DNA of 64,000 nucleotides from an uncultured SAR86 cluster bacterium. GTDB taxonomy: Bacteria > Pseudomonadota > Gammaproteobacteria > Magnimaribacterales > D2472. The translations under genes and the position numbers were made by a program. Shown one piece after another: positions 14,285-57,053 of the stretch (its first letter is position 1; each line of letters begins with the position of its first letter). The notes under the pieces were generated by a model that was not told the origin of the DNA, searched no databases, and saw only the letters and a list, made by a program, of their open reading frames with translations. The stretch is from assembly GCA_902518715.1 (NCBI GenBank), contig CABYHU010000001.1, forward strand, positions 178,156 to 242,155, read 5' to 3'.

Positions 14285-15494
14285 TAGGATTCAATTTGGC
14301 TGCTCGTGTTGATGGCCAAACAGAAGAAACAAAACATAAAAGAAATGATGAAAGTAGAACTAAAGTTATTTGATTAAAATTAAAAGAATATGGAAAATAA
14401 TTTATGAAGTAGTTATCCAATAATGACCTATTAATTAATGTTTCAATAAAGTTAATTAATGGATCAAGATTTAATGTTATTAAGATTCCCAAAAGAAGGC
14501 CTGAAATGATTCCCAATATTGATATATATAAACCTTGAAAGATAAAAATACTTACAATTGTGAGGTCGGATGCACCAATTGTTTTGAGAATAGCTATCTC
14601 TCTTTCTTTTGATCTAACACTCATAATTGTAGTACAAAGAACATTAAAAGCAGCTACACCAATAATTAAGAATACTAAAATGCCTATTATCAATTTTTCT
14701 AATTGGACAGCTTGAAATAAGGTTCCGTGAGTTTTTTCCCAGGTTGACGATGCATATATGGTATCTTGAGTAGATATTTCTAAAACAATATCTGAACCAA
14801 TAACTCTTGAATTCATAATATCTGTAACCTTTATTCTTATATTTTCTGTTGTATCCTTAAATCCTTTAATTTTTTGAGCTGAATTATGAGTAATCAAAGC
14901 TAAATTCTGATCTGGTTCAGCCTTTAGTTCAAAAATACCGGAAACAATAAATTTAAAACTTCTAGGGAAGGATCCAATAATAGATGATCTCATTTCTGAA
15001 GTTGTTATATTCACTTCATCACCAATAGAAGTTCCCAAATGAGCTGCTAACCAATATCCAAGAATGATTTCATTATCATTCAATGATTCTAAGGAGCCCA
15101 TTAACATATTATCGGGAAGTATTGAAACTTCAGACTCTTTCTTCACATCTATTCCAGTTAGAGCAATTCCCTTTGATCTATTACCAATAGAAATTAATGC
15201 CTGAGATTGAATAAATGGTGCTGCTGCCACAACATCTGGTTTTTTTTCTATTTGATCAATTAGTAACTGATAATCAGAAATAGGTTCTTTTGAATGAATT
15301 AATACGTGAGGTATTACACCTAATATTCTATCTCTAAGCTCTTTTTCAAAGCCATTCATGACTGATGTAACAATAATGAGGGCCGCTACACCGATAGTTA
15401 AACCTATTACAGCCATAATTGAAGTAAAGGATACGAAGGCTCCTTTGCTTGATCTAAAATACTTTAGGCCAAGAGAGGCTGCAAGCTTTAACAT
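14262..15494 (-). CDS. Lipoprotein-releasing ABC transporter permease (LolC/E family)
   Basis: GLKYFRSSKGAFVSFTSIMAVIGLTIGVAALI, MNGFEKELRDRIL, VFLIIGVAAFNVLCTTIMSVRSKEREIAILKTIGA. Confidence 0.93.
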   Translation of the reverse strand: MLKLAASLGLKYFRSSKGAFVSFTSIMAVIGLTIGVAALIIVTSVMNGFEKELRDRILGVIPHVLIHSKEPISDYQLLIDQIEKKPDVVAAAPFIQSQALISIGNRSKGIALTGIDVKKESEVSILPDNMLMGSLESLNDNEIILGYWLAAHLGTSIGDEVNITTSEMRSSIIGSFPRSFKFIVSGIFELKAEPDQNLALITHNSAQKIKGFKDTTENIRIKVTDIMNSRVIGSDIVLEISTQDTIYASSTWEKTHGTLFQAVQLEKLIIGILVFLIIGVAAFNVLCTTIMSVRSKEREIAILKTIGASDLTIVSIFIFQGLYISILGIISGLLLGILITLNLDPLINFIETLINRSLLDNYFINYFPYSFNFNQITLVLLSSFLLCFVSSVWPSTRAAKLNPNEVLRHE

Positions 15495-16933
15495 TACTTT
15501 AATAGTTTTTTTAGGACGTCTTCAATACTACTCTTGTAAGGAGGTCTTATAGCATCAAGTAATTTATCTAAACCGAATCCTATTTGCTTATAAATTGGTT
15601 TATTATTTGAAAAGTTCGTAAATCCATCAAAGCCGTCATATTTACCCATTCCCGATGGACCCACTCCTCCAAAACCTAATTCATTTTGTTGAATATGTCC
15701 CATAATGTCATTTACTGTAACTCCACCAGAGGTTGTTGAATTAATAACCATCGCTTCTTCATATTTATTGTTTCCAAAATAATATAATCCCAATGGTTTA
15801 TCATTTTTATTTATATAGTTAATTGGTTCATTTATGTCCTTGTAAGTCTTAATTGGAAGTAATGGACCAAAAATCTCTTCTTTCATTATTTGCATTTCGT
15901 CAGTTGGATTTAAAACAAGTGTTGGAGGGATTTTATGTGACTCTTGTTGAGAAAAATCTTCATTTGCTGGATTAATTTCTACAAGCTTTGCACCATGATC
16001 TTCAGCATCTGAGAGAAGACCATTTAATCTGTCATAATGTTTTTCATTTATTACTGATGTGTAATCAGGGTTATATTTAAGATCGCTATAAAATTCATTA
16101 ACTTGATTTTTGCATGCTTCAACAAAATTATCCTTCTCTGTTTCGTGTACATAAACATAATCAGGTGCTAGACATATTTGTCCTGCATTAAGAGTCTTAT
16201 TAAACATTACTCTTCTTGCTGTTATATCTATATCTGAAGAATCACTAACTATAACTGGAGATTTTCCTCCAAGCTCCAACGTTAATGGAACTAGATTTTC
16301 AGAGGCAGCACGCATTACATGCTTACCGATATTTCCGCTTCCTGTAAATAGCAAATGATCAAACTTAAGCTGAGTAAAAGCGGCACCAACTTCTGGGCCA
16401 CCTAGAAATGTAGCAAATTCAGTTTCATCAAAAGCACTATCACAAATTTCTTTTAGAAGTTCAGAAGTAATAGGAGTAAATTCACTTGGCTTATGCATTA
16501 CCTGATTACCTGCACTAAAGATTCCAGCTAAAGGAGCAAGAGATAAATACATTGGAAAGTTCCATGGAGATATCATTCCAACAACTCCAAGCGGCTCTCT
16601 GTGGATATATGACTTAGCTCCCATTAATCCAAATGGGAAGTTAGATTTTCTCTTCTCATCCCTCATCCAGGACTTTAAATGTTTTTTTGCATGGGTAAAT
16701 GCAGGAAGAACACCATAAACATCAGATATTAGGGATTGATTAGGTGACCTTGCTCCAAAGTCAGTGTTTAATGCTTCAGTTATTCTTTCTTTATTTTGAA
16801 TAACTATATCTTGAACTCTGTCTAATCGATCTATTCTTAATTCATATGAAGGCGGACCTTCATTTAAGAAATGCTCTCTTTGAAGTTTAAGAACTTCTTC
16901 CATTGACCTTTGATTTTCCATAATATCCTCCAA
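15494..16933 (-). CDS. Aldehyde dehydrogenase (coniferyl-aldehyde-dehydrogenase-like)
   Basis: SPWNFPMYLSLAPL, LELGGKSPVIV, NAGQICLAPDYV motifs. Confidence 0.92.
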   Translation of the reverse strand: MEDIMENQRSMEEVLKLQREHFLNEGPPSYELRIDRLDRVQDIVIQNKERITEALNTDFGARSPNQSLISDVYGVLPAFTHAKKHLKSWMRDEKRKSNFPFGLMGAKSYIHREPLGVVGMISPWNFPMYLSLAPLAGIFSAGNQVMHKPSEFTPITSELLKEICDSAFDETEFATFLGGPEVGAAFTQLKFDHLLFTGSGNIGKHVMRAASENLVPLTLELGGKSPVIVSDSSDIDITARRVMFNKTLNAGQICLAPDYVYVHETEKDNFVEACKNQVNEFYSDLKYNPDYTSVINEKHYDRLNGLLSDAEDHGAKLVEINPANEDFSQQESHKIPPTLVLNPTDEMQIMKEEIFGPLLPIKTYKDINEPINYINKNDKPLGLYYFGNNKYEEAMVINSTTSGGVTVNDIMGHIQQNELGFGGVGPSGMGKYDGFDGFTNFSNNKPIYKQIGFGLDKLLDAIRPPYKSSIEDVLKKLLK

Positions 16934-43602: not shown

Positions 43603-43862
43603 TGCAAAATAACGAATCTTTATCAGAATCCGATATTAATAGAATCATAGAGATGGCGTGGGAGGATAGAACAACCTTTGATGCTATTGAATCTCAATAT
43701 GGCCTCAAAGAACAAAAGGTTAAAGAATTAATGAGAGAACATTTAAAAAGTTCCTCATATAAGTTGTGGAGAAAAAGAGTGTATGGAAGAAAAACTAAAC
43801 ATCTCTCTAAAAGAGATTTCACAGTTGGTAGACATAAATCTTATGATCAAAATAAGTTTTAA
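43602..43862 (+). CDS. TIGR03643/DUF2805 family protein
   Basis: INRIIEMAWEDRTTFDAIESQYGLKEQKVKELMREHLKSSSYKLWRKRVYGRKTKH. Confidence 0.85.
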   Translation: MQNNESLSESDINRIIEMAWEDRTTFDAIESQYGLKEQKVKELMREHLKSSSYKLWRKRVYGRKTKHLSKRDFTVGRHKSYDQNKF

Positions 43863-44292
43863 ATTCTTAATAGTTCTCTCTTTCATGTCTTCATTCATTA
43901 TTGCTGATGACTTTAAGGCCAAAGCTAAATTTAAACCACAATATCCAAAATCTGCATATGTAAAAAGAATAAGCGGTTATGTTGTTGTAGATTTTTTAAT
44001 CAATCAGAAAGGAAGAACTGAACAACAATCTATATCATCAGCAAAGTGTTTCAATTTGATCGATAAAAATGGAAATTATTTTTGGTATGACTTTGAAAAT
44101 AACGAGATCAAGGCTGCCTATGACTGCAAGTATTTTGACTTTAAAGCCTTGAAGGCCTCAAAACAACTTATCTATGAGAATTATGTAGGTAAGCCTATTG
44201 AGCATTCATATAGATATAACTTTAGGCATTGGAGCCTTATTAAAGTTGACAGCGTTATCGATCTTGAGAGCGGTGATTTTGTTTTAAAATAA
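43843..44292 (+). CDS. Exported protein with TonB C-terminal-like domain
   Basis: PQYPKSAYVKRISGYVVVDFLINQKGRTEQQSI resembles the TonB CTD; signal-peptide-like start MIKISFKFLIVLSFMSSFIIA. Confidence 0.7.
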   Translation: MIKISFKFLIVLSFMSSFIIADDFKAKAKFKPQYPKSAYVKRISGYVVVDFLINQKGRTEQQSISSAKCFNLIDKNGNYFWYDFENNEIKAAYDCKYFDFKALKASKQLIYENYVGKPIEHSYRYNFRHWSLIKVDSVIDLESGDFVLK

Positions 44293-44293
44293 T

Positions 44294-45130
44294 TTATTCC
44301 TTATCTTTTTTTAAATCGCCTAGTGAATCTAAATATTCTTTATTCATATAATTTACCGGATTAAAAGGATAGTCTCTGAAGCTTTTAAGAGGCTGACCCA
44401 GTCCCATAAATCCTTTTATCCTTGCTTCTTTTACTTTATCAAAATCTATTTCTGCTTCTAATATTTTATTCTCTTGGTTAGCTTTATCTATTACAGAGCC
44501 TTCAAAATCACATATAAGTGACTTGCCAACACCCTGCTCTCCACTACCATTCAAGTCAACGTAATAGCATTGTTGTTGAGCAGCAGTAGCTTGCACCATT
44601 ACTGTCTCTATATCTCTATCTTTAGTAGGCGTCATAGTTGGATTAATAATTAGTTCAGCACCTGCTATTGCAAGAGCTCTTGCTGTTTCTGGAAACCAAA
44701 GGTCGTAGCAAATATGAATTCCTATATTTCCCTTATTTTCAAAATTAAAAACACAAATTTCATCACTTGGATCTACATCAATTTCATAAGGAAGCCATGG
44801 ATAAATCTTCTTAGCCTTTGCAATCATTTCACCATCCCTATTAAAAACTGGTGATACGTTAAATATCTTATGTCCATCTTCTTCATAAAAGGTTCCGGGT
44901 ATTAAAAAAATAGAATTATTTTTTGCAAATTCAGAAAATATTTTTTCATACTTTCTTAAGGGATGATTGCAGTTCTTTGCTCCAGCCCCTCCAACTGCAA
45001 GCTCACTAAGAATAATTAGATCTAAATCATCTCTTCTTTTTATCAAGTCATCCAATTGATTTAAAAGAAAATCTAAATTATCAGTTTTATTTAATTGAAG
45101 TTGAAGTGCTGCTAATTTTATTTTATTCAT
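44294..45130 (-). CDS. Carbon-nitrogen hydrolase (nitrilase superfamily)
   Basis: IKLAALQLQLNKTDNLD, LSELAV (Glu), KKIYPWLPYE (Lys), IGIHICYDLWFPETARALAIAGAELIINP (Cys). Confidence 0.9.
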   Translation of the reverse strand: MNKIKLAALQLQLNKTDNLDFLLNQLDDLIKRRDDLDLIILSELAVGGAGAKNCNHPLRKYEKIFSEFAKNNSIFLIPGTFYEEDGHKIFNVSPVFNRDGEMIAKAKKIYPWLPYEIDVDPSDEICVFNFENKGNIGIHICYDLWFPETARALAIAGAELIINPTMTPTKDRDIETVMVQATAAQQQCYYVDLNGSGEQGVGKSLICDFEGSVIDKANQENKILEAEIDFDKVKEARIKGFMGLGQPLKSFRDYPFNPVNYMNKEYLDSLGDLKKDKE

Positions 45131-45137
45131 TAATGAT

Positions 45138-46280
45138 TTATGAAGATTGTTGGCTTGCATACACTGCGAGCACGCATCCAAGAAGTAATCCAAAGGTAGC
45201 AAGATTTATAATTGCGCTAAAGCCATAATCGATTATTAAAAATGAAGCTATTAGAGGACCACTTGCTAGCCCAATTTTTGAGACAAAGCCAGCCAATGCT
45301 GCCATTTGACCATATTTATCAAAAGTTGCTGCTAAACCTAATAAATATGGAATGACAAAACCCCAAGTGATTCCTGTAACGGAGTTAGCAACAAAGTAAA
45401 TTGTTATATTTTCTGAGAAATTTAATAAGTACGTAAATAAAGAGGCTATGGTGAAACCAAACAATAAAGGCAAAGTCCTGCCAAATCGAGTGGCTATAAG
45501 ATAAGCAAAGGCACCTCCGGAGATTGAAATAATATTTGCAATTGTTAAAAGATTGCTAATTTCATTGTTAGTAAGATCAATGTCTTTGCCTAGCTCAAAT
45601 GCAAAATCTGCAACGCCCATATTTGATGCTTGAAATAAAAATAAGCTCATTAAACATATGCCTAATAATGCCTTAGAGTGAAGTGATAATACTCCTGAAC
45701 TACTGACAGTTTCTTCTTTTTCTTTTGGGTCAGGAATAAGTGGAAGTATCAACAATGTCATAATACTAAATGTAATTAAAACGAAGAAAACGGCACTATA
45801 GCCAAAAGCATCAACAAGTCTTGGCACTGTGAATATCCCAATGCTCCCAAAAGAATATTGAACAACCATTAGCATACCAAATACTCTATCTGGAAATGAT
45901 GTCCTAGCTATAACAGATAAACCAATTCCAACTAAAAACCCGCCAATTGTTCCGTGAAGAAACCTTATTAAGATTAATAAATTAGCATTTGGTATTTGCG
46001 ATGAAATAATATCAATTGAAATTAAAATGAATAGAAGTATATATGCTGACTTTCTCCATATAAGTTTTTTAATGAATATAGCTGCCAGCAAACCTCCAAA
46101 AGCTGCACCATACTTATTCGCACTTACTATGAAACCGGCTGCGTCTCTTTCAATACTCAAACCATCTACAAATGCAGACAAGAATGAACCACCTAAATTT
46201 ACATAAAATAATCCAGCAGTTGCCAGAATTGATAGAAAAAAAGCATTTAAGAGACTATCTTGATGAATATTTCTTAACAT
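45138..46280 (-). CDS. MFS transporter
   Basis: 12-TM profile; likely start MLRNIHQDSLLNAFFLS at 46280. Confidence 0.85.
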   Translation of the reverse strand: MLRNIHQDSLLNAFFLSILATAGLFYVNLGGSFLSAFVDGLSIERDAAGFIVSANKYGAAFGGLLAAIFIKKLIWRKSAYILLFILISIDIISSQIPNANLLILIRFLHGTIGGFLVGIGLSVIARTSFPDRVFGMLMVVQYSFGSIGIFTVPRLVDAFGYSAVFFVLITFSIMTLLILPLIPDPKEKEETVSSSGVLSLHSKALLGICLMSLFLFQASNMGVADFAFELGKDIDLTNNEISNLLTIANIISISGGAFAYLIATRFGRTLPLLFGFTIASLFTYLLNFSENITIYFVANSVTGITWGFVIPYLLGLAATFDKYGQMAALAGFVSKIGLASGPLIASFLIIDYGFSAIINLATFGLLLGCVLAVYASQQSS

Positions 46281-47920
46281 AATGGTTTGATGTTGTGAGC
46301 CGCGTATACTGCAGAATACCATGAGAAAGTAAAATTATCGCTAAAGTAGTAATACATCATTGAGTTAGGTAAAAAAACTACAGTTATTCCTCCAAATCCT
46401 GACATAAAAGGAATCATTAAATCCTCCTTACATCCAAATATATTTTTATCGAATCTAGCAGCCCAAAATCCATTATTATAAAAAATATCAGATTGCTTAA
46501 TAGCTAGTAATCCTCTATCTTCGGTGCGTTGAAGCCCCTCATCTAAAAATTCTTTTGAAAAATATTTAACTCTTTCTGGAGATTGAAAAAGTGAGTTTAA
46601 TTTAATTAAATCATCTCGTTTAAGAAACATTCCCCATCCAGTGTATGGCTGATTTCTAATATCATTTGTTCTTCTAATATATTTGATTTTTTCACTGAAA
46701 TTATGATGATTAAATATAGGAACTAACAAATCATCGAAAAAATCATTTTCTTTTTTGTCAGATAATAAATTATTTAGAGATGTGCCAATTAGATAGGTAT
46801 CCGAAGTGTGATAAACAAACGTTGTCCCTGGTTTTTTCTTTTTTGGATAGTTGTTACATGAAAAATCTACTTTTTCTTCATGACTTAGCTTATTAAAAAT
46901 GAAATTTACGGATGCGAGACTATCTTCATCACCATAGTGAATTAATGATTTATATTGACCCGTTGCCATATCTGAAAGATTTTCAATTGTTACATCCTTC
47001 CATTTATTTTTTGAACAAGTAGATACAAGATCATTTATCTTGATATCTACAATTGATCCATATTTTTTTTGATAAGCTGCAATTCCTAAAGATCCACTTA
47101 TAGTCTTTGTAAGTGAATATGCCGGCAACAACAGGTTGTCGCAGAATGGATAATTACCTGATCTAGTTAAGCATGGCCCTATAAAATGCTCCTCGCCATC
47201 AAAAAATCCATATGCAGTAACTTCGTTTGCATTGAATGCATCTGAATCTGCAAAGGATCCTCTAAAAATAGATGGATATTTTTCATATAAATCATCTATA
47301 GATTTTTTATTTTGAGTATCGGTAATAAATTCATTGTCATTATCATTAGTTTCAAAAAAAGAATCGAAAATAGCTACATAATTAAATTGAAAATAAGCAC
47401 AGGTTTCGCTTGATATCTGAAATATACTTTGAGAAATTTCATTAGAAGAATTCAAGACAAATAATAAAACTCCATTATGAGAACAATTTGCATGTTTCTG
47501 GATTAAGGTAAATGGTGCGGAAACATAGACATGATCCTCTTTAGACCATGCCATTCCATCGGAAAAACTTAAATCCCAAAATTTATCATCCGTTTCAATA
47601 ATTTTTTTGTTGTGAACAACTACGTTCTGACCTTGAATTGATAAATCCAGTTTAAAATCAGGAAACTTTAAAAATAAATCTTCATTTTTCCTATTTTTAA
47701 ATGTTTTTTCATCTCTAATAACATCATAACCAATACCCTTTGGATACGAGTTAATATAAAAACTTCCAGAGAGATTTTTATAATTTATATTTTTTGATTC
47801 AGCGAGGATATAGTCAAAATTTATAGGTGATGTTAAAGGTATTTCACCCCATAAAATTTTGCCCAAATCTTGTGAATGAAGAAATGGGCAAAGAATTAGT
47901 AAGAAAAATAATCTATACAA
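46274..47920 (-). CDS. Exported serine hydrolase (beta-lactamase fold)
   Basis: Signal peptide; LLPAYSLTKTISGSLGIAAYQ SxxK motif; downstream GWGMFLKRDDLIKL. Confidence 0.75.
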   Translation of the reverse strand: MYRLFFLLILCPFLHSQDLGKILWGEIPLTSPINFDYILAESKNINYKNLSGSFYINSYPKGIGYDVIRDEKTFKNRKNEDLFLKFPDFKLDLSIQGQNVVVHNKKIIETDDKFWDLSFSDGMAWSKEDHVYVSAPFTLIQKHANCSHNGVLLFVLNSSNEISQSIFQISSETCAYFQFNYVAIFDSFFETNDNDNEFITDTQNKKSIDDLYEKYPSIFRGSFADSDAFNANEVTAYGFFDGEEHFIGPCLTRSGNYPFCDNLLLPAYSLTKTISGSLGIAAYQKKYGSIVDIKINDLVSTCSKNKWKDVTIENLSDMATGQYKSLIHYGDEDSLASVNFIFNKLSHEEKVDFSCNNYPKKKKPGTTFVYHTSDTYLIGTSLNNLLSDKKENDFFDDLLVPIFNHHNFSEKIKYIRRTNDIRNQPYTGWGMFLKRDDLIKLNSLFQSPERVKYFSKEFLDEGLQRTEDRGLLAIKQSDIFYNNGFWAARFDKNIFGCKEDLMIPFMSGFGGITVVFLPNSMMYYYFSDNFTFSWYSAVYAAHNIKPLC

Positions 47921-47926
47921 AGAGTA

Positions 47927-50419
47927 TTAGAAAGATTTCTCTATTGATATTCCAACTGTTCTTGGAAGAGCAATAAATTCTCTATCGTTACTTCCATAAA
48001 AACCTTCTGCTGGATTTGGTCCAAATGATTCGCTTTTAAACATTCCTGTTACACCACGCTCATTCATTAAGTTTTTAACAAATAAGCTTACATACATATC
48101 ATCATTGAAGAATGTTGCTGACACATCACCAATCGTGAATGAGTCTAGCTGCTGTGAATAACCAACATTAGTGCTTAAATGATTTTTCATATCACTTTGA
48201 TAATACATATTTGCTCTATGAACAACACCCCATCCGTTTGTGAAATAATGAGTATATGCTAACCCAGCATTAAACATGTCCTCTGGGGTTCCAGGTAAGC
48301 CGTCACCTTGTGGTGCATAAACTGTTGGAACAGAAGCAGGTGTTACAAGATCTGCTCTTAAATCAGATTTATTTCTAGCATAACCAAGATCCCAATCTAA
48401 ACTCCCAACTGTACCTTTCAATTCAATATCTAAACCAGTGGTCTGAGCTTCGTCACCATTTATTACGGCATAAAAGCTGTAATTTGGTGTATCGGTATTT
48501 AATTGAGGATTATTCCAATCAACTCTATAAACACTGATGTTGTAATAAACATCTTTTTTACTAACGCCCTTAGTTCCAAACTCAAGATTCAGAACTGAAT
48601 CAGAATCAAAAGGAACCCATCCGGCTTCCTCAGTAAAAGTTCCTTCAGTAGGAACAGCATTTACTCCACCTCTTCTAAATCCTTCTGAAAGCGTTGCATA
48701 CCAAGTCTGATTTGATTTAGGCATGTAAGCTAAATTTAACTTATACAAAGTATCTGATTCTTGATTGTCATGATCACCAGTAGATGGTCCAAGACCATAC
48801 AAGGCAAAACTCATATCTGAGGTACCACCAGCATTAAGTGAAAAGTGCCTAAAGCCAAAAGTCACATCAAATACATCAGACGCATGATAAGTAAGTTCTC
48901 CATATGCTGCTTTTTGTCTGATTGTTTCAGAAACACGGTAGTCAAAATCTGTTTCTAATGGATCGACCACGTAATCAACACCATAGTAATATCCGTTCCA
49001 AGCATTGGTTCCTTTTATCATAGTTTGTTGTTTTCTAGTAAGTTGCTCTTTTTGCATAAAGAATCCAAGAACATAGTCAACGACATCAGATTTTTCAGAA
49101 ATTAATCTAACTTCAAAAGTCTTACCACTATTATCATATTGTCTATTTGCTGCAACATATGGTCTAGGTGGCACTGCAAAAATACCCCCAACACCAAAGT
49201 CAGAGTAGTATCCAGCTATATCGCTAGTTAAGAATCCACCATTGGCAAAGAATCCAGTATTATCAGTGATACTCTCAGATTCTCTTTCATAATTTGAAAG
49301 AGATACCTCTAAATCAGCTGCCGATCCGTCAAAGTTAAGTTCAATTGTATTAAGAGTTACTTCTCTCATTGACGGTTCAAGCATTACAGCTCCGTTGTCA
49401 TAGCTTCCATATGTTGATGTTGAATAACAGTCTGTAGCTGTTAGATCAACACATGAATCATTAAGAACATATCTTGTTCCAGTAGAAGGCGCTCTTCTCC
49501 CTCCAACCATATCTTCTTGAGTTGTTGATGTAATTAAAAGCTCAAGATTGTCAGAAATATCCACAAGAACTTTGTGTCTAAAAAATTCAACATCAACAGT
49601 ATCAGCATCCTTAACTCCATTAATTACAGGAGGTGAAGTCATAAAGTCTAGCGCTGTTCCAAAGCCATTCCTAAGTGATGGCACTCCTGAAGATCCACTT
49701 ATCAGCCCTATTCCATAAGGATCAAATGCTGGTAAATCAGTTACCTCATGAACATTAACGTAATCTGTAATTCCAGGATAATCAGCTTTTGATGAAACGA
49801 ATCTATATGCAATATTGCTTAAAACAGGCACATTAATGACAACATCAACATTGTCTCCAATATCATCAGAGCCCTTAACCTGACTCGCTGTCAAATTAAC
49901 CTTTGAGGAAAAACCATCAAGAGAAGGTTTATTTGTTATATATCTTACAGTTCCTCCAAGAGCTCCAGAACCATAGAGCGTTGACTGTGGCCCTCTTAAA
50001 ACCTCAACTCTATTAAGGTCTTTTAAGAGAAAGTTTGCAAAAACCGGGGTTTTGTCTACGTAAGTTGAAACTGCTGCTGCAGCACTAACTGGATAATCTT
50101 GTAATGCATTGGAATCAACATTTAGACCTCTTATTCTTATATTGTTAACAGTTCCCGCATTCCTTGAACCTCTGTCTATTGTGCTAATACCCGCAAAACT
50201 TCTGAGAAGTTCTGCCGTATCTTGAATACCTTTGGAATCAATATCAGATCCTGATACTGCAGAAATATTGTATGGAACTTCAAAAATTGACGTCTCTCTT
50301 GAAGTGGCTGTAACAACAACCTCCTCTATATCGTTTGCAGTATCCTCATCGCTCTCTTGAGCAATTAAAGATATATTAAAAAAGAAAACTGGTAATAAAA
50401 AATACTTAAAAGATTTCAT
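47927..50419 (-). CDS. TonB-dependent receptor
   Basis: Signal peptide, TonB-box-like IEEVVVTATSRETSIF, plug motif VEVLRGPQSTLYGSGALGGTVRYITNKP, C-terminal Phe. Confidence 0.95.
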   Translation of the reverse strand: MKSFKYFLLPVFFFNISLIAQESDEDTANDIEEVVVTATSRETSIFEVPYNISAVSGSDIDSKGIQDTAELLRSFAGISTIDRGSRNAGTVNNIRIRGLNVDSNALQDYPVSAAAAVSTYVDKTPVFANFLLKDLNRVEVLRGPQSTLYGSGALGGTVRYITNKPSLDGFSSKVNLTASQVKGSDDIGDNVDVVINVPVLSNIAYRFVSSKADYPGITDYVNVHEVTDLPAFDPYGIGLISGSSGVPSLRNGFGTALDFMTSPPVINGVKDADTVDVEFFRHKVLVDISDNLELLITSTTQEDMVGGRRAPSTGTRYVLNDSCVDLTATDCYSTSTYGSYDNGAVMLEPSMREVTLNTIELNFDGSAADLEVSLSNYERESESITDNTGFFANGGFLTSDIAGYYSDFGVGGIFAVPPRPYVAANRQYDNSGKTFEVRLISEKSDVVDYVLGFFMQKEQLTRKQQTMIKGTNAWNGYYYGVDYVVDPLETDFDYRVSETIRQKAAYGELTYHASDVFDVTFGFRHFSLNAGGTSDMSFALYGLGPSTGDHDNQESDTLYKLNLAYMPKSNQTWYATLSEGFRRGGVNAVPTEGTFTEEAGWVPFDSDSVLNLEFGTKGVSKKDVYYNISVYRVDWNNPQLNTDTPNYSFYAVINGDEAQTTGLDIELKGTVGSLDWDLGYARNKSDLRADLVTPASVPTVYAPQGDGLPGTPEDMFNAGLAYTHYFTNGWGVVHRANMYYQSDMKNHLSTNVGYSQQLDSFTIGDVSATFFNDDMYVSLFVKNLMNERGVTGMFKSESFGPNPAEGFYGSNDREFIALPRTVGISIEKSF

Positions 50420-50494
50420 AACTTCCTCTATAGATGACTAAAAATTTACTGTGATTATAGTATTTTGGCTTAAATATGACAAAATAAAACACGT

Positions 50495-50722
50495 ATGTAC
50501 TCAAATTATTTCATAGCAGCGTGTCAAATTGTGCTTTTGGTAGGTCTTCTATTCTTTGGGATTGAGTATTTTCTTCTTGGCTTAGGTTGTTTTGTCATGG
50601 GCTTTAGCTTCTTTTCATTGGTAAACAATCAATCAGGCTCAAAGGGTATTACTGAACCTTATAAAGGAAAAAGCGGAAAGACCTATACTGCTAAGCAGGA
50701 TAGAGAAGAACACATAGTCTAA
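50495..50722 (+). CDS. Small membrane protein (75 aa)
   Basis: Two hydrophobic segments then polar tail. Confidence 0.6.
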   Translation: MYSNYFIAACQIVLLVGLLFFGIEYFLLGLGCFVMGFSFFSLVNNQSGSKGITEPYKGKSGKTYTAKQDREEHIV

Positions 50723-50723
50723 T

Positions 50724-51263
50724 TTAAATAGTTTTTGGGAAACTAAAGAATTTTTCAATAAGAGGAATAAAATACTCTAATGGTTCAGTGTCATATTCTG
50801 GATCAAAAGCTGCTTGATCCCACTCATCAGTAAATTGCTTAGCTTTTTCATACCATGACTCGTTTTCATAGTTTTTTCGAAGATCTCTTGGTTTTCCTAA
50901 GTAATGATAATAATGCTCGCCTTGAAAGTCTTGATGAGTACGAATTATGTTGTAAGCGTCATCACTTACATAGGGTTTGATAATCTCTGCACATATTTGC
51001 CCATGATTTGGAACATTTACTACTTTACCCATGTCATGGATTAAGCTAATTAAAATCATTTCATCTTCAGCTCCAGCTCTCTTCGCCATAGTTGCTGTTT
51101 GAAGGGCATGATGTAATTGATTAGTTCCAAAACCTAAAGAAAGTCCTTCTAGCTGTTTAAGCATTTCTACGACTCTTGTAGGCATATCCATGATATGCGG
51201 GGCATGTTCTTGGCTAATATGCTCCCACTCTTCTTTGGTACCTTCTGACATTTTCGTAAACAT
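50724..51263 (-). CDS. HD-domain protein, candidate PhnZ/MIOX-like mixed-valent di-iron oxygenase
   Basis: NQLHHALQTATMAKRAGAEDEMILISLIHDMGKV metal-binding core, C-terminal FTDEWDQAAFDPEYDTEPLEYF. Confidence 0.75.
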   Translation of the reverse strand: MFTKMSEGTKEEWEHISQEHAPHIMDMPTRVVEMLKQLEGLSLGFGTNQLHHALQTATMAKRAGAEDEMILISLIHDMGKVVNVPNHGQICAEIIKPYVSDDAYNIIRTHQDFQGEHYYHYLGKPRDLRKNYENESWYEKAKQFTDEWDQAAFDPEYDTEPLEYFIPLIEKFFSFPKTI

Positions 51264-51346: not shown

Positions 51347-51718
51347 ATGTTATATGTAGTTCTAGGCACCATGCTAATGTATTTAATTCATTTAGCTCTT
51401 CCAAAAATACTTACTTATAAAAACCATAGAGACTTTTCTCCTATACAAGTTCGTCTAGCAAAGGACTCAAATATTCCTGATTATGTATCTAGAATGCATT
51501 CTGCAACAAGAAATCTTCAGGAAAGTTTGCCCATATTTTTTGCTTGTGCTGTGCTATCAATCGTTATGAATGTTGATTCATTTTCATATGCGTTGACATG
51601 GTTAATATTAAGGATTATCTATTTCCTTTGCTATGCATACAAACTAAATCCATATAGAACGATTGCTTGGCTTGGATCAATCATATGTTTGATCTTAATG
51701 GCTATAAATTTAATTTAG
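51347..51718 (+). CDS. MAPEG family membrane protein
   Basis: RMHSATRNLQESLPIFFACAVL and RIIYFLCYAYKLNPYRTIAWLGS. Confidence 0.85.
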   Translation: MLYVVLGTMLMYLIHLALPKILTYKNHRDFSPIQVRLAKDSNIPDYVSRMHSATRNLQESLPIFFACAVLSIVMNVDSFSYALTWLILRIIYFLCYAYKLNPYRTIAWLGSIICLILMAINLI

Positions 51719-52807
51719 CAGCGAATCTAAAGCTTCTCTTACAAGTACATTAGGAACATCTTTTTTATCAATATTCAAACCATCTTTTAGGTACTGATTC
51801 TCATTTAAAGCTTGATCAATACCTTTATTGGTTAGTTCATGAATATAGCTAATCGTGGCTCTATTTAATGCATTGCTAGCAGTTAATGGAACAGCACCAG
51901 GCATATTAGTTACACAATAGTGAACTATGCCCTTATGGATGAATGTTGGATCATCATGAGTAGTTGGTGAAGACGTTTCAAAGCATCCTCCTTGATCAAT
52001 AGAGATGTCCACCATGACCGCTCCAGGTTTAACAGAATCAAGCATACTATCAGTAACTACTTTTGGAGCATTTTTTCCAAGGGAATAAACTGAACCTAAT
52101 ATTAAGTCTGAATCTTTTATTGAGTCAGCAATAGAGTCTGGAGTGGAAACAATATAATTAATTTTTTCATCACCATATTTAGATTTTAATTGCGACAGTC
52201 TTTGTTCAGATAAATCGATTAAGTTCACTTCAACACCATTATTAACAGCTTTTTGAAGTGACTCTTCGCCAGCAACACCACAGCCTATGATGGTTACTAA
52301 ACCCAAATCTAATCCATCTAATGTGCCTATAAGAACCCCTCTACCTTTGTTTTGTTTTAACAAAAAGTAATTGCCAACATTAAAAGCTATCTGGCCCGCA
52401 ATTGCGCTCATTGGTGCCAAAAGTGGAAAAGTATCATCAGGGCTAGTTACTGTTTCGTACGCAATACCCCGAACTCCGGTATCAATTAGTTTTTTTGCTA
52501 ATGATGGATTACCAGCAAGATGCAAGTATGTAAAAAGAGTTATATCTGAATTTAGATATTGAACCTCTGATTCCATAGGTTCTTTTACTTTTACAATTAG
52601 CTCTGATTTTTCATAAACCTCACCAGCTGTATTAAGGATTTTTGCTCCAGCTGCTTCATATTTTTCATTTGTAAAACCGATTTCTTTTCCGCAATTAGTT
52701 TCCACAAACACTTCATGTCCGTTTGCAGAAATCTCTGAGACTGAATCTGGAGTTAATCCAACTCGATGCTCATTATTTTTAATCTCTTTTGGCAAACCTA
52801 CGATCAT
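51710..52807 (-). CDS. ald: Alanine dehydrogenase
   Basis: MIVGLPKEIKNNEHRVGLTPDSV, TYLHLAG, MVDISIDQGGCFETSSPTTHDDPTF, HYCVTNMPGAVPLTAS. Confidence 0.96.
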   Translation of the reverse strand: MIVGLPKEIKNNEHRVGLTPDSVSEISANGHEVFVETNCGKEIGFTNEKYEAAGAKILNTAGEVYEKSELIVKVKEPMESEVQYLNSDITLFTYLHLAGNPSLAKKLIDTGVRGIAYETVTSPDDTFPLLAPMSAIAGQIAFNVGNYFLLKQNKGRGVLIGTLDGLDLGLVTIIGCGVAGEESLQKAVNNGVEVNLIDLSEQRLSQLKSKYGDEKINYIVSTPDSIADSIKDSDLILGSVYSLGKNAPKVVTDSMLDSVKPGAVMVDISIDQGGCFETSSPTTHDDPTFIHKGIVHYCVTNMPGAVPLTASNALNRATISYIHELTNKGIDQALNENQYLKDGLNIDKKDVPNVLVREALDSLLN

Positions 52808-54234
52808 TTTAAAAGTCCTTGTTTTGCAAGTTCATCCATAGTTTTCTTAAGAGATTCTTCAACAATATCAAACATGTCGTTTATTTGAGATTCGGTAATT
52901 ATCAAGGGTGGACAAAAAGCAATTACATCTCCTATTGCTCTTACAATTAAACCATTATCTTTTGCGTGATCAGCAAAAATCTTCCCGGCAACACCTTTTT
53001 TTTCGAATCCTTTATTAGAGTTCCTCTCTGAAACAAACTCCATTGCTCCAATAAGACCAATACCTCTGGTATTACCAACAAGATCATATTGATCACATTT
53101 ATTTAATCTTTCAATGAAGGTTGGGCTAACTTTGTTGACATGTCCCAACATATCATCTCTCTCATAAATCTCTAAAGTCTTAACGGCAACTGCACAAGCA
53201 ACTGGGTGACCTGAGTATGTATATCCATGACCAAAAATACCCAGCTCATCACTTTTTTGAGCCACAATATCGTAACAATCATCTGAGATAATTACCGCGC
53301 TTATAGGAAGATAAGAAGAAGAAAGAGCTTTTGCAACAGTTATTGAAACTGGTTTCATATTAAACGTTTCCGCACCCCAAACATTTCCAGTTCTTCCAAA
53401 TCCACAAATAACTTCATCATCAATTAATGGAATTTCATACTTATTAAGAATTGGTTGAATAGTTTCAAAATAATTTTTAGGCGGGATAATCACGCCACCA
53501 GCTCCCATGAGGGGTTCAGCAAACATTGCGGCAATAGTCTCAGGATCTTGTTTCACAATATGATTTTCTAAATCTTCGCCAAGTCTCTCAACAAATGATT
53601 CCTCTGATTCACCCTCATGCTTATTCATAAAATAATGAGGTGACATTGCATGAGAAAAATGATTTTGTGGCAAATCAAAATTACCATGAATGGTTGGAAG
53701 GCCTGTTAAAGATGAGGTTGCTAAAGTGACGCCATGATAAGCTTGAACTCGAGAAAGAAATTTTTTCTTCTTGGTTTTTCCAAGAGCATTATTGATGTAC
53801 CAAAATAGTTTTATTTGGGTATCGTTTGCATCTGACCCAGAACTACCAAAAAATACCTTTGCATTGTCGTATGGTGATAAATCAACTAATTTCTCTGCAA
53901 GTTCAATTGCTGGTTCATGGCTTTTAGAAGCAAATAAATTTCCATAGGGAAACTTCTTAAATTGTTCCATTGCTGCATCAGCTAATTCCTCATTTCCATG
54001 ACCTAATGCATTGCACCAAAGACCTGCCATACCTTCAATATATTTATTTCCATCTGTGTCATATACATAGATGCCATCACCTCTCTCTAATATGAATGGG
54101 CCAGATTCTTTATGAGCAATAAGATTTGTATTTGGATGAAAGAGAAAATCTTTATCTTTTTTAGATAATTTTTCTGTGAGACTGTTTGGCCTAGACAATT
54201 TTTTCCTCTTAAATAGTGTAAGTGAATTATACAT
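52804..54234 (-). CDS. Class III (omega) aminotransferase
   Basis: YIEGMAGLWCNALGHGNEELADAA, FFGSSGSDANDTQIKL, IDDEVICGFGRTGNVWGAETF, TVAKALSSSYLPISAV. Confidence 0.92.
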   Translation of the reverse strand: MYNSLTLFKRKKLSRPNSLTEKLSKKDKDFLFHPNTNLIAHKESGPFILERGDGIYVYDTDGNKYIEGMAGLWCNALGHGNEELADAAMEQFKKFPYGNLFASKSHEPAIELAEKLVDLSPYDNAKVFFGSSGSDANDTQIKLFWYINNALGKTKKKKFLSRVQAYHGVTLATSSLTGLPTIHGNFDLPQNHFSHAMSPHYFMNKHEGESEESFVERLGEDLENHIVKQDPETIAAMFAEPLMGAGGVIIPPKNYFETIQPILNKYEIPLIDDEVICGFGRTGNVWGAETFNMKPVSITVAKALSSSYLPISAVIISDDCYDIVAQKSDELGIFGHGYTYSGHPVACAVAVKTLEIYERDDMLGHVNKVSPTFIERLNKCDQYDLVGNTRGIGLIGAMEFVSERNSNKGFEKKGVAGKIFADHAKDNGLIVRAIGDVIAFCPPLIITESQINDMFDIVEESLKKTMDELAKQGLLK

Positions 54235-54265
54235 AATTTATACTTATCAAGAACACAAAAAAACA

Positions 54266-55465
54266 ATGAAAATTCTTCTATACGCTATTCTTTTTCTAAC
54301 TTTAGTTGTCTCAATTTTTATCCTACCAAAGGCCATAAGAGTTCATAAAATAAAAACTTTATATGACAAAGATAAAATTGTTTATAACTTTACAAATATG
54401 GACAAAATATTTCCTTCAAGAAATATTAAAGCTTCTGAAGAACCTAAGCCTATCAAAAGAAATATTCAAACTTTGCCGGAAATATTTTCTTTTGAAGGTG
54501 AGACAAAAAATCTCCAAGAATATTTAGATTACTTTTGGTCAGATGGAATGATAATAATTCATAAAGATGAAATAGTTTATGAAAATTATTGGCTTGGCAA
54601 TAACGAGTCTAAAAAACATATTTCATGGTCAGTGGCAAAATCATTTATATCTGCCCTCGTGGGCATAGCGCTTGAGGAAGGATTAATTGATTCTTTAGAA
54701 GATCCCATAACAAAATACTTAGATGATTTTAAGGATACAGGTTATGACAATGTATCTATAAAAAATATTCTTCAAATGTCTACAGGCGTTCTTTTTAATG
54801 AAGACTATGCCGATAATAACTCTGATATTAATAGATTTGGTCGAGCTATAGCTACTGGTACATCAATGCGTGATTTTTCTAAAACATTAACTAGGGAGAA
54901 AGAGCCAGGAACATATATGCACTATGTTAGCATTAATACTCAAGTGCTTGGTTTCCTCCTTCAAGAAGTAACTAACAGATCAATTTCAGAATACTTATAT
55001 GAAAAAATCTGGAATCCTCTTGGAATGGAGGACTCTGCCTATTTTATTTTAGATAATGTAGAGGACGAACTTGCTCTTGGAGGCCTAAATGCCACCTTAA
55101 GAGATTATGCTAAGTTTGGTTTATTGTATTTACAAAAAGGTAAATGGAATGATTCACAAATTCTCTCTGAGCAGTGGATTGAAGATTCTCATAAAACTGA
55201 TGGAGAGCATCTAATCCCAGGAGAAAGAGATACATCATCTAATCCATGGGGCTATGGTTATCAATGGTGGGTACCAGGTTTTCCTGATACTGATTACACT
55301 GCATCGGGTGTATACAATCAATACATATATATAGATCCAAAATCTGAAATAGTGATTGCTAAGACTTCATCAAATTATAAATACACGTCTGAGCTACAGT
55401 GGTCTAAAGATATGCATGTAGCAATGTTTAGATCTATAGCTAAGCATTTTAACTCTGAAGATTAG
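54266..55465 (+). CDS. Serine hydrolase (beta-lactamase fold, NylB/EstB-like)
   Basis: HISWSVAKSFISALVGIALEEG SxxK motif, GYGYQWWVPGFPDTDYTASGVYNQYIYIDP; N-terminal TM; start at MKILLYAILF. Confidence 0.88.
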   Translation: MKILLYAILFLTLVVSIFILPKAIRVHKIKTLYDKDKIVYNFTNMDKIFPSRNIKASEEPKPIKRNIQTLPEIFSFEGETKNLQEYLDYFWSDGMIIIHKDEIVYENYWLGNNESKKHISWSVAKSFISALVGIALEEGLIDSLEDPITKYLDDFKDTGYDNVSIKNILQMSTGVLFNEDYADNNSDINRFGRAIATGTSMRDFSKTLTREKEPGTYMHYVSINTQVLGFLLQEVTNRSISEYLYEKIWNPLGMEDSAYFILDNVEDELALGGLNATLRDYAKFGLLYLQKGKWNDSQILSEQWIEDSHKTDGEHLIPGERDTSSNPWGYGYQWWVPGFPDTDYTASGVYNQYIYIDPKSEIVIAKTSSNYKYTSELQWSKDMHVAMFRSIAKHFNSED

Positions 55466-55466
55466 A

Positions 55467-57053
55467 ATGCAAAAAAAATACTATGATGCTGTTATCATTG
55501 GTGGTGGTCATAATGGATTAGTATGCTCATTCTATCTTGCAAAAGCAGGACTCAAAGTAAAAGTTCTTGAAAGAAGAGGTATTGTTGGAGGCGCAGCCGT
55601 GACAGAAGAGTTCTATCCAGGGTTTAGAAATTCAACTGCTAGCTACACAGTAAGCTTATTAAATCCAATTGTCATCAAAGATATGCACTTAAAAGAAAAT
55701 GGTCTTGAGATTATAAAAAGACCAATTTCTAACTTTCTTCCAATTAATGATTCAGAATATCTTAAAGTTGGAGGATCTCTTGAATCTACACAAAAAGAAT
55801 TTCAAAAGTTTTCAACTAAAGATGCAAATATTCTGCCTGAATATTACAGACGCATAGAAAATGTTGCAGATGTTCTCAGAGACTTAACTACAAAAACACC
55901 ACTTAATTTGAAAGGCGGATATTTAAATATAGCTAAAACAATTTTTGATCTTGTTCCAATAGCAAGAAAAACTAATGAACTTCAAGAAGATCTTTTTAAC
56001 TTGTTTACAAAAAGTGCAAAAGATTTTTTAGATTCTTGGTTTGAAAGTGACCATATAAAAGCTTGTTTCGGTTTTGATTCAATAGTTGGAAATTATGCAA
56101 GCCCAGAAACACCGGGGTCAGCTTATGTTCTTCTTCATCATGTATTTGGAGAAATTGATGGTGAAAAAGGAGCATGGGGACATGCTGTTGGTGGAATGGG
56201 ATCTATTACACAATTAATGAAAAATGTTTGTGAAGAAAAAGGAGTGGAAATTTCTACAAATGCTGCAGTAGAGAGAGTTCTTATCAAAAATAATAAAGCA
56301 ATAGGAGTTATGCTAGAGGATGGATCAGAAGTATTTGCTGATAAAGTAATTTCTAATCTAAATCCAAAACTACTGTTCAAAAAACTTGTTGATAGAGATG
56401 ATGTTAATCGAGAATATCGAAGAAAAATACTGAATTACAAATGCGGCTCTGGAACATTTAGAATGAATGTTGCACTTTCAGAGCTCCCAGATTTCAATTG
56501 CCTTCCTGGAAAAGAAATTAGTGAACACCATAAGTCTGGAATTGTAATTGCCCCCTCACTAACTTATATGGATCAAGCTTTTACTGATGCAAAACAATTT
56601 GGCTGGTCAAAAAACCCAATTGTTGAGATGCTAATACCTTCAACTGTCGACTCTACTCTTGCACCTGAAGGAAAACATGTTGCCTCTTTGTTTTGTCAGC
56701 AATTTGCTCCAACTCTTCCTGATAATAAATCTTGGCATGATGAGAAAGATAATGCAGCAAATACAATTATTGAAACTGTTAATCGTTTTGCTCCAAATTT
56801 TAAAAACTCAATTTTAGGAATGTCTATTCTATCTCCTCTAGATCTTGAGGAAAAACTAGGACTTATAGGTGGTGACATTATGCATGGAGTAATGTCACTA
56901 GATCAAATGTGGGCCGCTAGACCAGTTTTTAATTATGGAGATTATAAAACTCCTGTGAAAGATCTTTTTATCTGTGGTTCAGGAACTCATCCTGGCGGAG
57001 GTGTAACTGGTCTTCCAGGAAAAAATTCGTCTAGGGAAATACTTAAGGCATAA
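55467..57053 (+). CDS. FAD-dependent oxidoreductase (PYROXD2-like, CrtI-fold)
   Basis: DAVIIGGGHNGLVCSFYLAKAGLKVKVLERR, VGGAAVTEEFYPGFRNSTASY, ICGSGTHPGGGVTGLPGKNSSREIL. Confidence 0.9.
   Translation: MQKKYYDAVIIGGGHNGLVCSFYLAKAGLKVKVLERRGIVGGAAVTEEFYPGFRNSTASYTVSLLNPIVIKDMHLKENGLEIIKRPISNFLPINDSEYLKVGGSLESTQKEFQKFSTKDANILPEYYRRIENVADVLRDLTTKTPLNLKGGYLNIAKTIFDLVPIARKTNELQEDLFNLFTKSAKDFLDSWFESDHIKACFGFDSIVGNYASPETPGSAYVLLHHVFGEIDGEKGAWGHAVGGMGSITQLMKNVCEEKGVEISTNAAVERVLIKNNKAIGVMLEDGSEVFADKVISNLNPKLLFKKLVDRDDVNREYRRKILNYKCGSGTFRMNVALSELPDFNCLPGKEISEHHKSGIVIAPSLTYMDQAFTDAKQFGWSKNPIVEMLIPSTVDSTLAPEGKHVASLFCQQFAPTLPDNKSWHDEKDNAANTIIETVNRFAPNFKNSILGMSILSPLDLEEKLGLIGGDIMHGVMSLDQMWAARPVFNYGDYKTPVKDLFICGSGTHPGGGVTGLPGKNSSREILKA

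Follow-up and report, generated by a model that had tools for sequence, protein, structure and literature searches.

A receptor, hydrolase, transporter and amidase-like gene cassette of SAR86 that probably leads to an omega-amino acid

A stretch of 64,000 nucleotides from a SAR86 cluster genome (contig CABYHU010000001.1, positions 178,156 to 242,155; hereafter the window) carries a cassette of four genes for a TonB-dependent receptor, a predicted exported SxxK serine hydrolase, an MFS transporter and a nitrilase-superfamily carbon-nitrogen (C-N) hydrolase (Table 1). The cassette is probably the uptake-and-hydrolysis half of a utilisation locus, in which an amide-linked organic nitrogen compound would be converted to an omega-amino acid, most simply the C4 compound gamma-aminobutyrate (GABA). 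The four genes keep their association across relatives, and the block that holds them is present or absent as one unit. In the surface ocean, SAR86 ranks among the most abundant bacteria. The window's assembly amounts to ~1.06 Mb, and a scan of named genomes returned a single hit for the hydrolase, a 97% identical protein of the SAR86 single-cell genome AG-390-J09.

A first-pass annotation of the sequence had described four co-directional minus-strand genes, receptor first, with small gaps and an overlap between the hydrolase and MFS genes. This layout is borne out with refined ends: the receptor and hydrolase genes are 6 bp apart, the hydrolase and MFS genes overlap by 7 bp, and 7 bp separate the MFS and C-N hydrolase genes. 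The predicted protein kinds also hold, three of them by Pfam and the hydrolase by motifs, homologs and fold.

Table 1. Cassette genes, the variable block and neighbouring catabolic genes in the window
Feature	Position	Strand	Basis or remark
TonB-dependent receptor, 830 aa, first cassette gene	47927..50419	-	Pfam plug PF07715 and barrel PF00593 above cut-off
Predicted exported SxxK serine hydrolase, 548 aa, TTG start	46274..47920	-	Conserved motifs; beta-lactamase-like predicted fold
MFS transporter, 380 aa	45138..46280	-	PF07690 above cut-off
Nitrilase-superfamily C-N hydrolase, amidase-like, 278 aa, E43-K108-C141	44294..45130	-	PF00795 above cut-off
Presence/absence block	44293..50471		Exactly absent from sister genome G002 (L076)
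HD-domain protein	50724..51263	-	Weak HD/MIOX/Phn-HD matches; between alanine dehydrogenase and cassette
Alanine dehydrogenase	51710..52807	-	TIGR00518 above cut-off; overlaps aminotransferase gene by 4 bp
Class-III omega-aminotransferase	52804..54234	-	NF004767 (PRK06105) above cut-off

The cassette within SAR86

The survey of SAR86 covered 107 genomes of the family. The hydrolase was found in 10 of them, and the C-N hydrolase and the MFS transporter were each found in nine with one further weak match. Nine genomes carry the hydrolase, the MFS transporter and the C-N hydrolase together, and in the tenth (G003) the contig stops within the hydrolase gene. The co-occurrence of the two hydrolases, shared by all nine, has a hypergeometric p of ~3e-12, which is a guide only since related genomes are not independent. 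Receptor orthologs (98-56% identity) occur only in SAR86 cassettes and MFS orthologs (62-99% identity) only in cassette-bearing SAR86. The other receptors of the same genus match the cassette receptor mainly over the plug (~40%), with no full-length counterpart. A simple scan of the MFS protein showed ~10 hydrophobic segments.

The gene order is kept in three SAR86 genera at 37-63% identity. Comparison of the sister genome G002 with the window by blastn showed an empty site with flanks at 44091-44292 and 50472-50874, the absent stretch comprising the four genes and 52 bp upstream of them. Conservation of the order in relatives, which the first-pass annotation had put forward as a check, is thus found within SAR86, and the gene set recurs in other families and in another class. 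Scattering of the four genes among relatives, which that annotation named as a refutation, was looked for, and the outcome did not contradict the unit. The broken frames of genome G043 look like sequencing errors and were left out of the interpretation.

The start of the C-N hydrolase gene is the ATG of 44294-45130, where ortholog alignments begin, and not the longer open reading frame start at 45202. All SAR86 orthologs of the hydrolase gene whose 5' end is complete, from three genera, share its TTG start, which may reflect translational coupling to the receptor gene. Tight spacing alone is no evidence for a unit, because 75% of the same-strand neighbours within the window are no more than 7 bp apart. 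However, the explanation that such dense packing of small genomes merely made these genes neighbours has next to no probability, given their joint presence and absence, an association kept in larger genomes and rearranged loci that hold the same set.

Recurrence in other families and the catabolic partners

Profile searches with the hydrolase found relatives in three families of the same class (f20, f141 and f184) and in two of another class of the same phylum (f225 and f246). The 60 stretches read, eight of them from SAR86, were selected for their hydrolase, and some of them are not independent of one another. All four genes occur in 34 of the 60 stretches, spanning five proteobacterial families, and at least three genes in 42. 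Outside SAR86 the gene order varies and is often rearranged, including inversions of the MFS gene. The same gene set in varying order argues for selection on the set. The pairwise distances of the four cassette proteins correlate (r 0.82-0.93), with a contribution from shared ancestry.

A MocR-type regulator is present in 40 of the 52 stretches from outside SAR86. Nineteen stretches, from 14 genera of four families, encode the GABA transaminase GabT near the hydrolase, and 17 encode succinate-semialdehyde dehydrogenase (SSADH); the two genes are mostly adjacent to each other. All 17 scanned full-length GabT proteins match TIGR00700 and all 13 scanned full-length SSADH proteins match TIGR01780 (E<=1e-140), and at two loci checked individually both proteins lie above the curated cut-offs. 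By a rough estimate, the chance of a gabT gene in a 20-kb stretch is below 1%. In L129, L132 and L133 the genes for the dehydrogenase, GabT, MocR, the C-N hydrolase, the receptor, a sulfotransferase, the hydrolase and the MFS transporter are co-directional. L112, L136 and L138, from another class, also hold a co-directional array, with the dehydrogenase and GabT at the far end. The dehydrogenase of L117 adjoins an iron-type alcohol dehydrogenase and may belong to another pathway, giving weak support. Glycolytic and metK genes beside the locus in L122 and L126 were set aside as housekeeping by inspection of the sequence starts. A gene for a TPR-sulfotransferase follows the receptor gene in most cassettes outside SAR86 (L034, L089-L101, L112-L138); SAR86 cassettes do not have it.

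The inner-membrane transporter is interchangeable between the MFS, TRAP, Dpp-type ABC and APC kinds. In family f184 the hydrolase is paired with a TRAP transporter (L114, L140 and L141), and in L139 of that family a dipeptide/nickel-type (Dpp-type) ABC transporter adjoins the C-N hydrolase. On Streptomyces and Rhodococcus plasmids the C-N hydrolase gene is divergent from a LysR-hydrolase pair and there is no receptor gene; an APC permease is annotated beside the pair in the two annotated Streptomyces records. Both genera have no Gram-negative outer membrane, and the loss of the receptor there is as an import role predicts.

In SAR86 itself the place of GabT and SSADH appears to be taken by a pyruvate-type aminotransferase together with alanine dehydrogenase and a different aldehyde dehydrogenase. 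Genera g5 and g8 have a class-III aminotransferase gene after the C-N hydrolase gene, and in g5 an alanine dehydrogenase gene comes next; some of these loci have a LysR regulator in between. Wherever the sequence covers the receptor end, the receptor gene is preceded by a divergent aldehyde dehydrogenase gene. The aminotransferase directly after the C-N hydrolase in L028-L032 is a ~60% ortholog of that of the window, where the aminotransferase and alanine dehydrogenase orthologs (51710-54234) lie two genes from the cassette. Of the 107 genomes, 13 have an ortholog of the aminotransferase, and these 13 include each of the 10 that carry the cassette (p ~8e-12). A pyruvate-using aminotransferase beside an alanine dehydrogenase is a coherent pair.

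GabT-type enzymes also accept 5-aminovalerate. Instead of GABA, the same machinery might yield an omega-amino acid with a longer chain (5-aminovalerate or 6-aminohexanoate) or an acid derived from a diamine, a reading that is unlikely but the strongest of the alternatives. The closest Protein Data Bank (PDB) chain to the window aminotransferase is the omega-aminotransferase of Pseudomonas jessenii (6g4b), which deaminates 6-aminohexanoate with pyruvate (PMC6061476) and whose Arg417 binds the carboxylate (PMC13224807). R432 of the window enzyme aligns with this Arg417, and the small residue A102 stands at Ser87 of the P. jessenii enzyme, where plant GABA transaminase has Trp91. However, the partner dehydrogenases outside SAR86 match the succinate-semialdehyde family with the E-values given above, and the two that were checked individually exceed the curated cut-off, which favours GABA.

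Hydrolases, receptor and neighbouring genes

The profile search with the window hydrolase gave no Pfam match even at E=10 and no NCBIfam match. Its assignment as an exported SxxK enzyme rests on the SxxK nucleophile motif, invariant in all aligned homologs as in PF00144-type enzymes, on the Pfam Beta-lactamase match of a homolog of 36% identity (L034; 37 bits vs. a cut-off of 27) and on Foldseek searches, in which the best PDB matches of a low-confidence predicted model were class C beta-lactamases (E 2.4e-9). The N-terminus is signal-peptide-like by inspection. Sixteen proteobacterial homologs share the motifs S269-x-x-K272, Y370-x-T372 and M506-S/A-G508. Eight cysteines (146, 174, 250, 260, 302, 355, 497 and 548) are all invariant among the aligned proteobacterial homologs, consistent with disulfides in the periplasm, by which the protein is probably stabilised. 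Among distant paralogs of the hydrolase (L103-L106) the neighbouring genes show no common theme. A distant homolog (25%) on plasmid pAMI4 of Paracoccus aminophilus (L154) adjoins genes of the hydantoinase/oxoprolinase family, of which caprolactamase is a relative.

The SxxK motif and the predicted fold are shared with class C beta-lactamases and PF00144 enzymes. The fold could suggest a function related to the cell wall or to antibiotics, with the SxxK enzyme as a DD-peptidase or beta-lactamase and the C-N hydrolase acting on muropeptides or a drug. Such a role is highly improbable. All 16 homologs have M-S/A-G in place of KTG/HxG, the third motif of those enzymes, and Y-x-T as the second motif; the long extra N-terminal half and the conserved cysteines are unlike those enzymes, and the recurring partners are catabolic genes.

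The C-N hydrolase combines a PF00795 domain with the Glu-Lys-Cys residues of the nitrilase superfamily. In the homolog alignment E43 and K108 are invariant, and C141 is retained except for one unreadable residue. A structural model with a predicted local distance difference test score (pLDDT) of 84 has Nit2, N-carbamoylputrescine amidohydrolase and aliphatic amidase as its nearest Foldseek relatives (20-26% identity). The first-pass annotation had proposed an amide- or nitrile-containing substrate. The nitrogenous, amide part of this proposal agrees with these relatives, whereas nitrile hydrolysis was rejected because the nearest superfamily relatives are amidases. Placement of the enzyme within the superfamily gave no named branch, every NCBIfam model matching far below its cut-off (the best, deaminated glutathione amidase, at 71 vs. 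355 bits). Homologs of the C-N hydrolase in L153 and L159 lie near genes for 2-ketoarginine decarboxylase, an agmatinase-like protein and an aldehyde dehydrogenase. By known chemistry, the 2-ketoarginine route also ends at GABA. On Shinella and Roseateles plasmids, nitrilase homologs are linked to 2-ketoarginine genes with no hydrolase of the SxxK family there, which is a hint only.

The best NCBIfam match of the receptor is the TonB-siderophore subfamily, and the name siderophore receptor is given to many TonB receptors, those annotated across SAR86 among them (PMC11582366). A locus for siderophore uptake and processing is nevertheless improbable; in such a locus the receptor would import a ferric chelate, the two hydrolases would cleave a siderophore containing an amide, and the MFS protein would carry it inward. 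The subfamily match is far below the cut-off (88.9 vs. 223.5), and the recurring partners are GabT/SSADH and MocR. Iron uptake was rejected, as no Fur-box-like site beyond the shuffle level was found upstream of the cassette and no ferric reductase or other iron genes are among the identified cassette genes.

The membership of the HD-domain protein in the pathway is uncertain. Its gene is kept in G002 and G007, which have no cassette. The protein has a weak resemblance to phosphonate/inositol-type HD oxygenases, and a 36% homolog adjoins the cassette MocR gene in L098. At 54176-57053, two genes 1 bp apart and divergent from the aminotransferase pair encode another serine hydrolase (PF00144) and a flavin amine oxidase. 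G002 and G006, in which the cassette was not found, have kept both, and a PF00144 gene also adjoins GabT in L112. On the other strand beside the cassette end lies a gene for a small protein with a TonB C-terminal domain (43783-44292), present without the cassette too. A bacteriorhodopsin-like gene (PF01036; 57096-57764) probably encodes a proteorhodopsin.

Proposed route and comparison with known systems

We infer the substrate, the bonds cut, the direction of transport and the co-transcription of the four genes as follows. The TonB-dependent receptor would bring the compound across the outer membrane, and the need for such a receptor suggests a bulky or scarce substrate. The SxxK hydrolase, a putative beta-lactamase-fold serine enzyme, would make the first cut in the periplasm, and the MFS protein would carry the small product across the inner membrane. 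In the cytoplasm the nitrilase-superfamily enzyme, acting as an amidase, may hydrolyse the remaining amide and free the omega-amino acid. The class-III aminotransferase would then pass the amino group to pyruvate, the alanine dehydrogenase would recycle the alanine and free ammonia, and the aldehyde dehydrogenase would oxidise the semialdehyde. Outside SAR86, GABA transaminase and SSADH would perform the final step under a MocR/GabR-like regulator. The presence in relatives of an aminotransferase with alanine dehydrogenase or SSADH, plus a regulator, points to a GABA-type omega-amino acid product, and the finding of two different end-pathways with the same chemical logic strengthens this reading. 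The first-pass annotation had proposed a complete import route. Comparative data give good support to one uptake-and-hydrolysis unit but not to its completeness, as the loci of relatives add the aminotransferase, alanine dehydrogenase or SSADH, and the regulator.

Several observations weigh against the GABA route. Most f20 stretches have no GabT or SSADH nearby, and f184 stretches are without the receptor and the MFS transporter. G002, G007 and G006, whose contig breaks off at that point, have the aminotransferase without the cassette, indicating that the two units are separable in genus g1. In the window's genus the aminotransferase-alanine dehydrogenase pair lies outside the block and persists without the cassette (G002 and G007), and the link of the cassette to a transamination step is indirect there. 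No SSADH was identified for the window's genome, and the window aldehyde dehydrogenase at 15494-16933 is not an SSADH by NCBIfam. The TIGR00700 and TIGR01780 pair of gab loci does not occur in the window, where the aminotransferase is of the PRK06105 type and accompanied by the alanine dehydrogenase. The acceptance of 5-aminovalerate by GabT-type enzymes would fit a C5 product as well as a C4 one, and the AlphaFold model of the hydrolase has low confidence (pLDDT 60.8).

The imports of the many TonB receptors of SAR86 are mostly unknown, and for one family of these receptors the module offers a class of substrates open to testing. The putatively exported SxxK hydrolases form an unannotated family that comes with a second catalytic step and a regulator, and it extends to families with larger genomes, some of whose members may be culturable. 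A bolder and rather doubtful extension is that the module is a widespread and so far undescribed system that takes up a natural polyamide of omega-amino acids or a GABA-capped natural product, which the exported SxxK family would open and whose pieces would be imported and burnt as GABA. If true, nylon-4-like chemistry would be natural in the sea and used by SAR86.

Each protein kind is already known, and no description of their combination was found in the open-access library searched, subscription literature lying outside the search. Like TonB-dependent utilisation loci of the polysaccharide utilisation locus (PUL) model, the system has a receptor, a periplasmic hydrolase, an inner-membrane transporter, cytoplasmic catabolic enzymes and a local regulator. 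However, there is no SusC/SusD pair with carbohydrate-active enzymes, neither SusD nor a carbohydrate-active enzyme being among the cassette genes; a serine SxxK enzyme and an amidase are the hydrolases, and the catabolic partners are of the GABA type. GabT, SSADH and a MocR-type regulator adjoining the cassette in several families correspond to the gab operon (GabT, GabD and a GabR/MocR-type regulator), from which SAR86 differs by its other aminotransferase and the alanine dehydrogenase. To our knowledge, gab operons include neither an outer-membrane receptor nor an exported hydrolase nor a C-N hydrolase. The caprolactam/6-aminohexanoate pathway of P. jessenii relies on an ATP-dependent caprolactamase to open the amide bond, and TonB is not mentioned in the paper, whereas the steps after amide cleavage, a pyruvate omega-aminotransferase and then a semialdehyde dehydrogenase, are shared with the route proposed here (PMC6061476).

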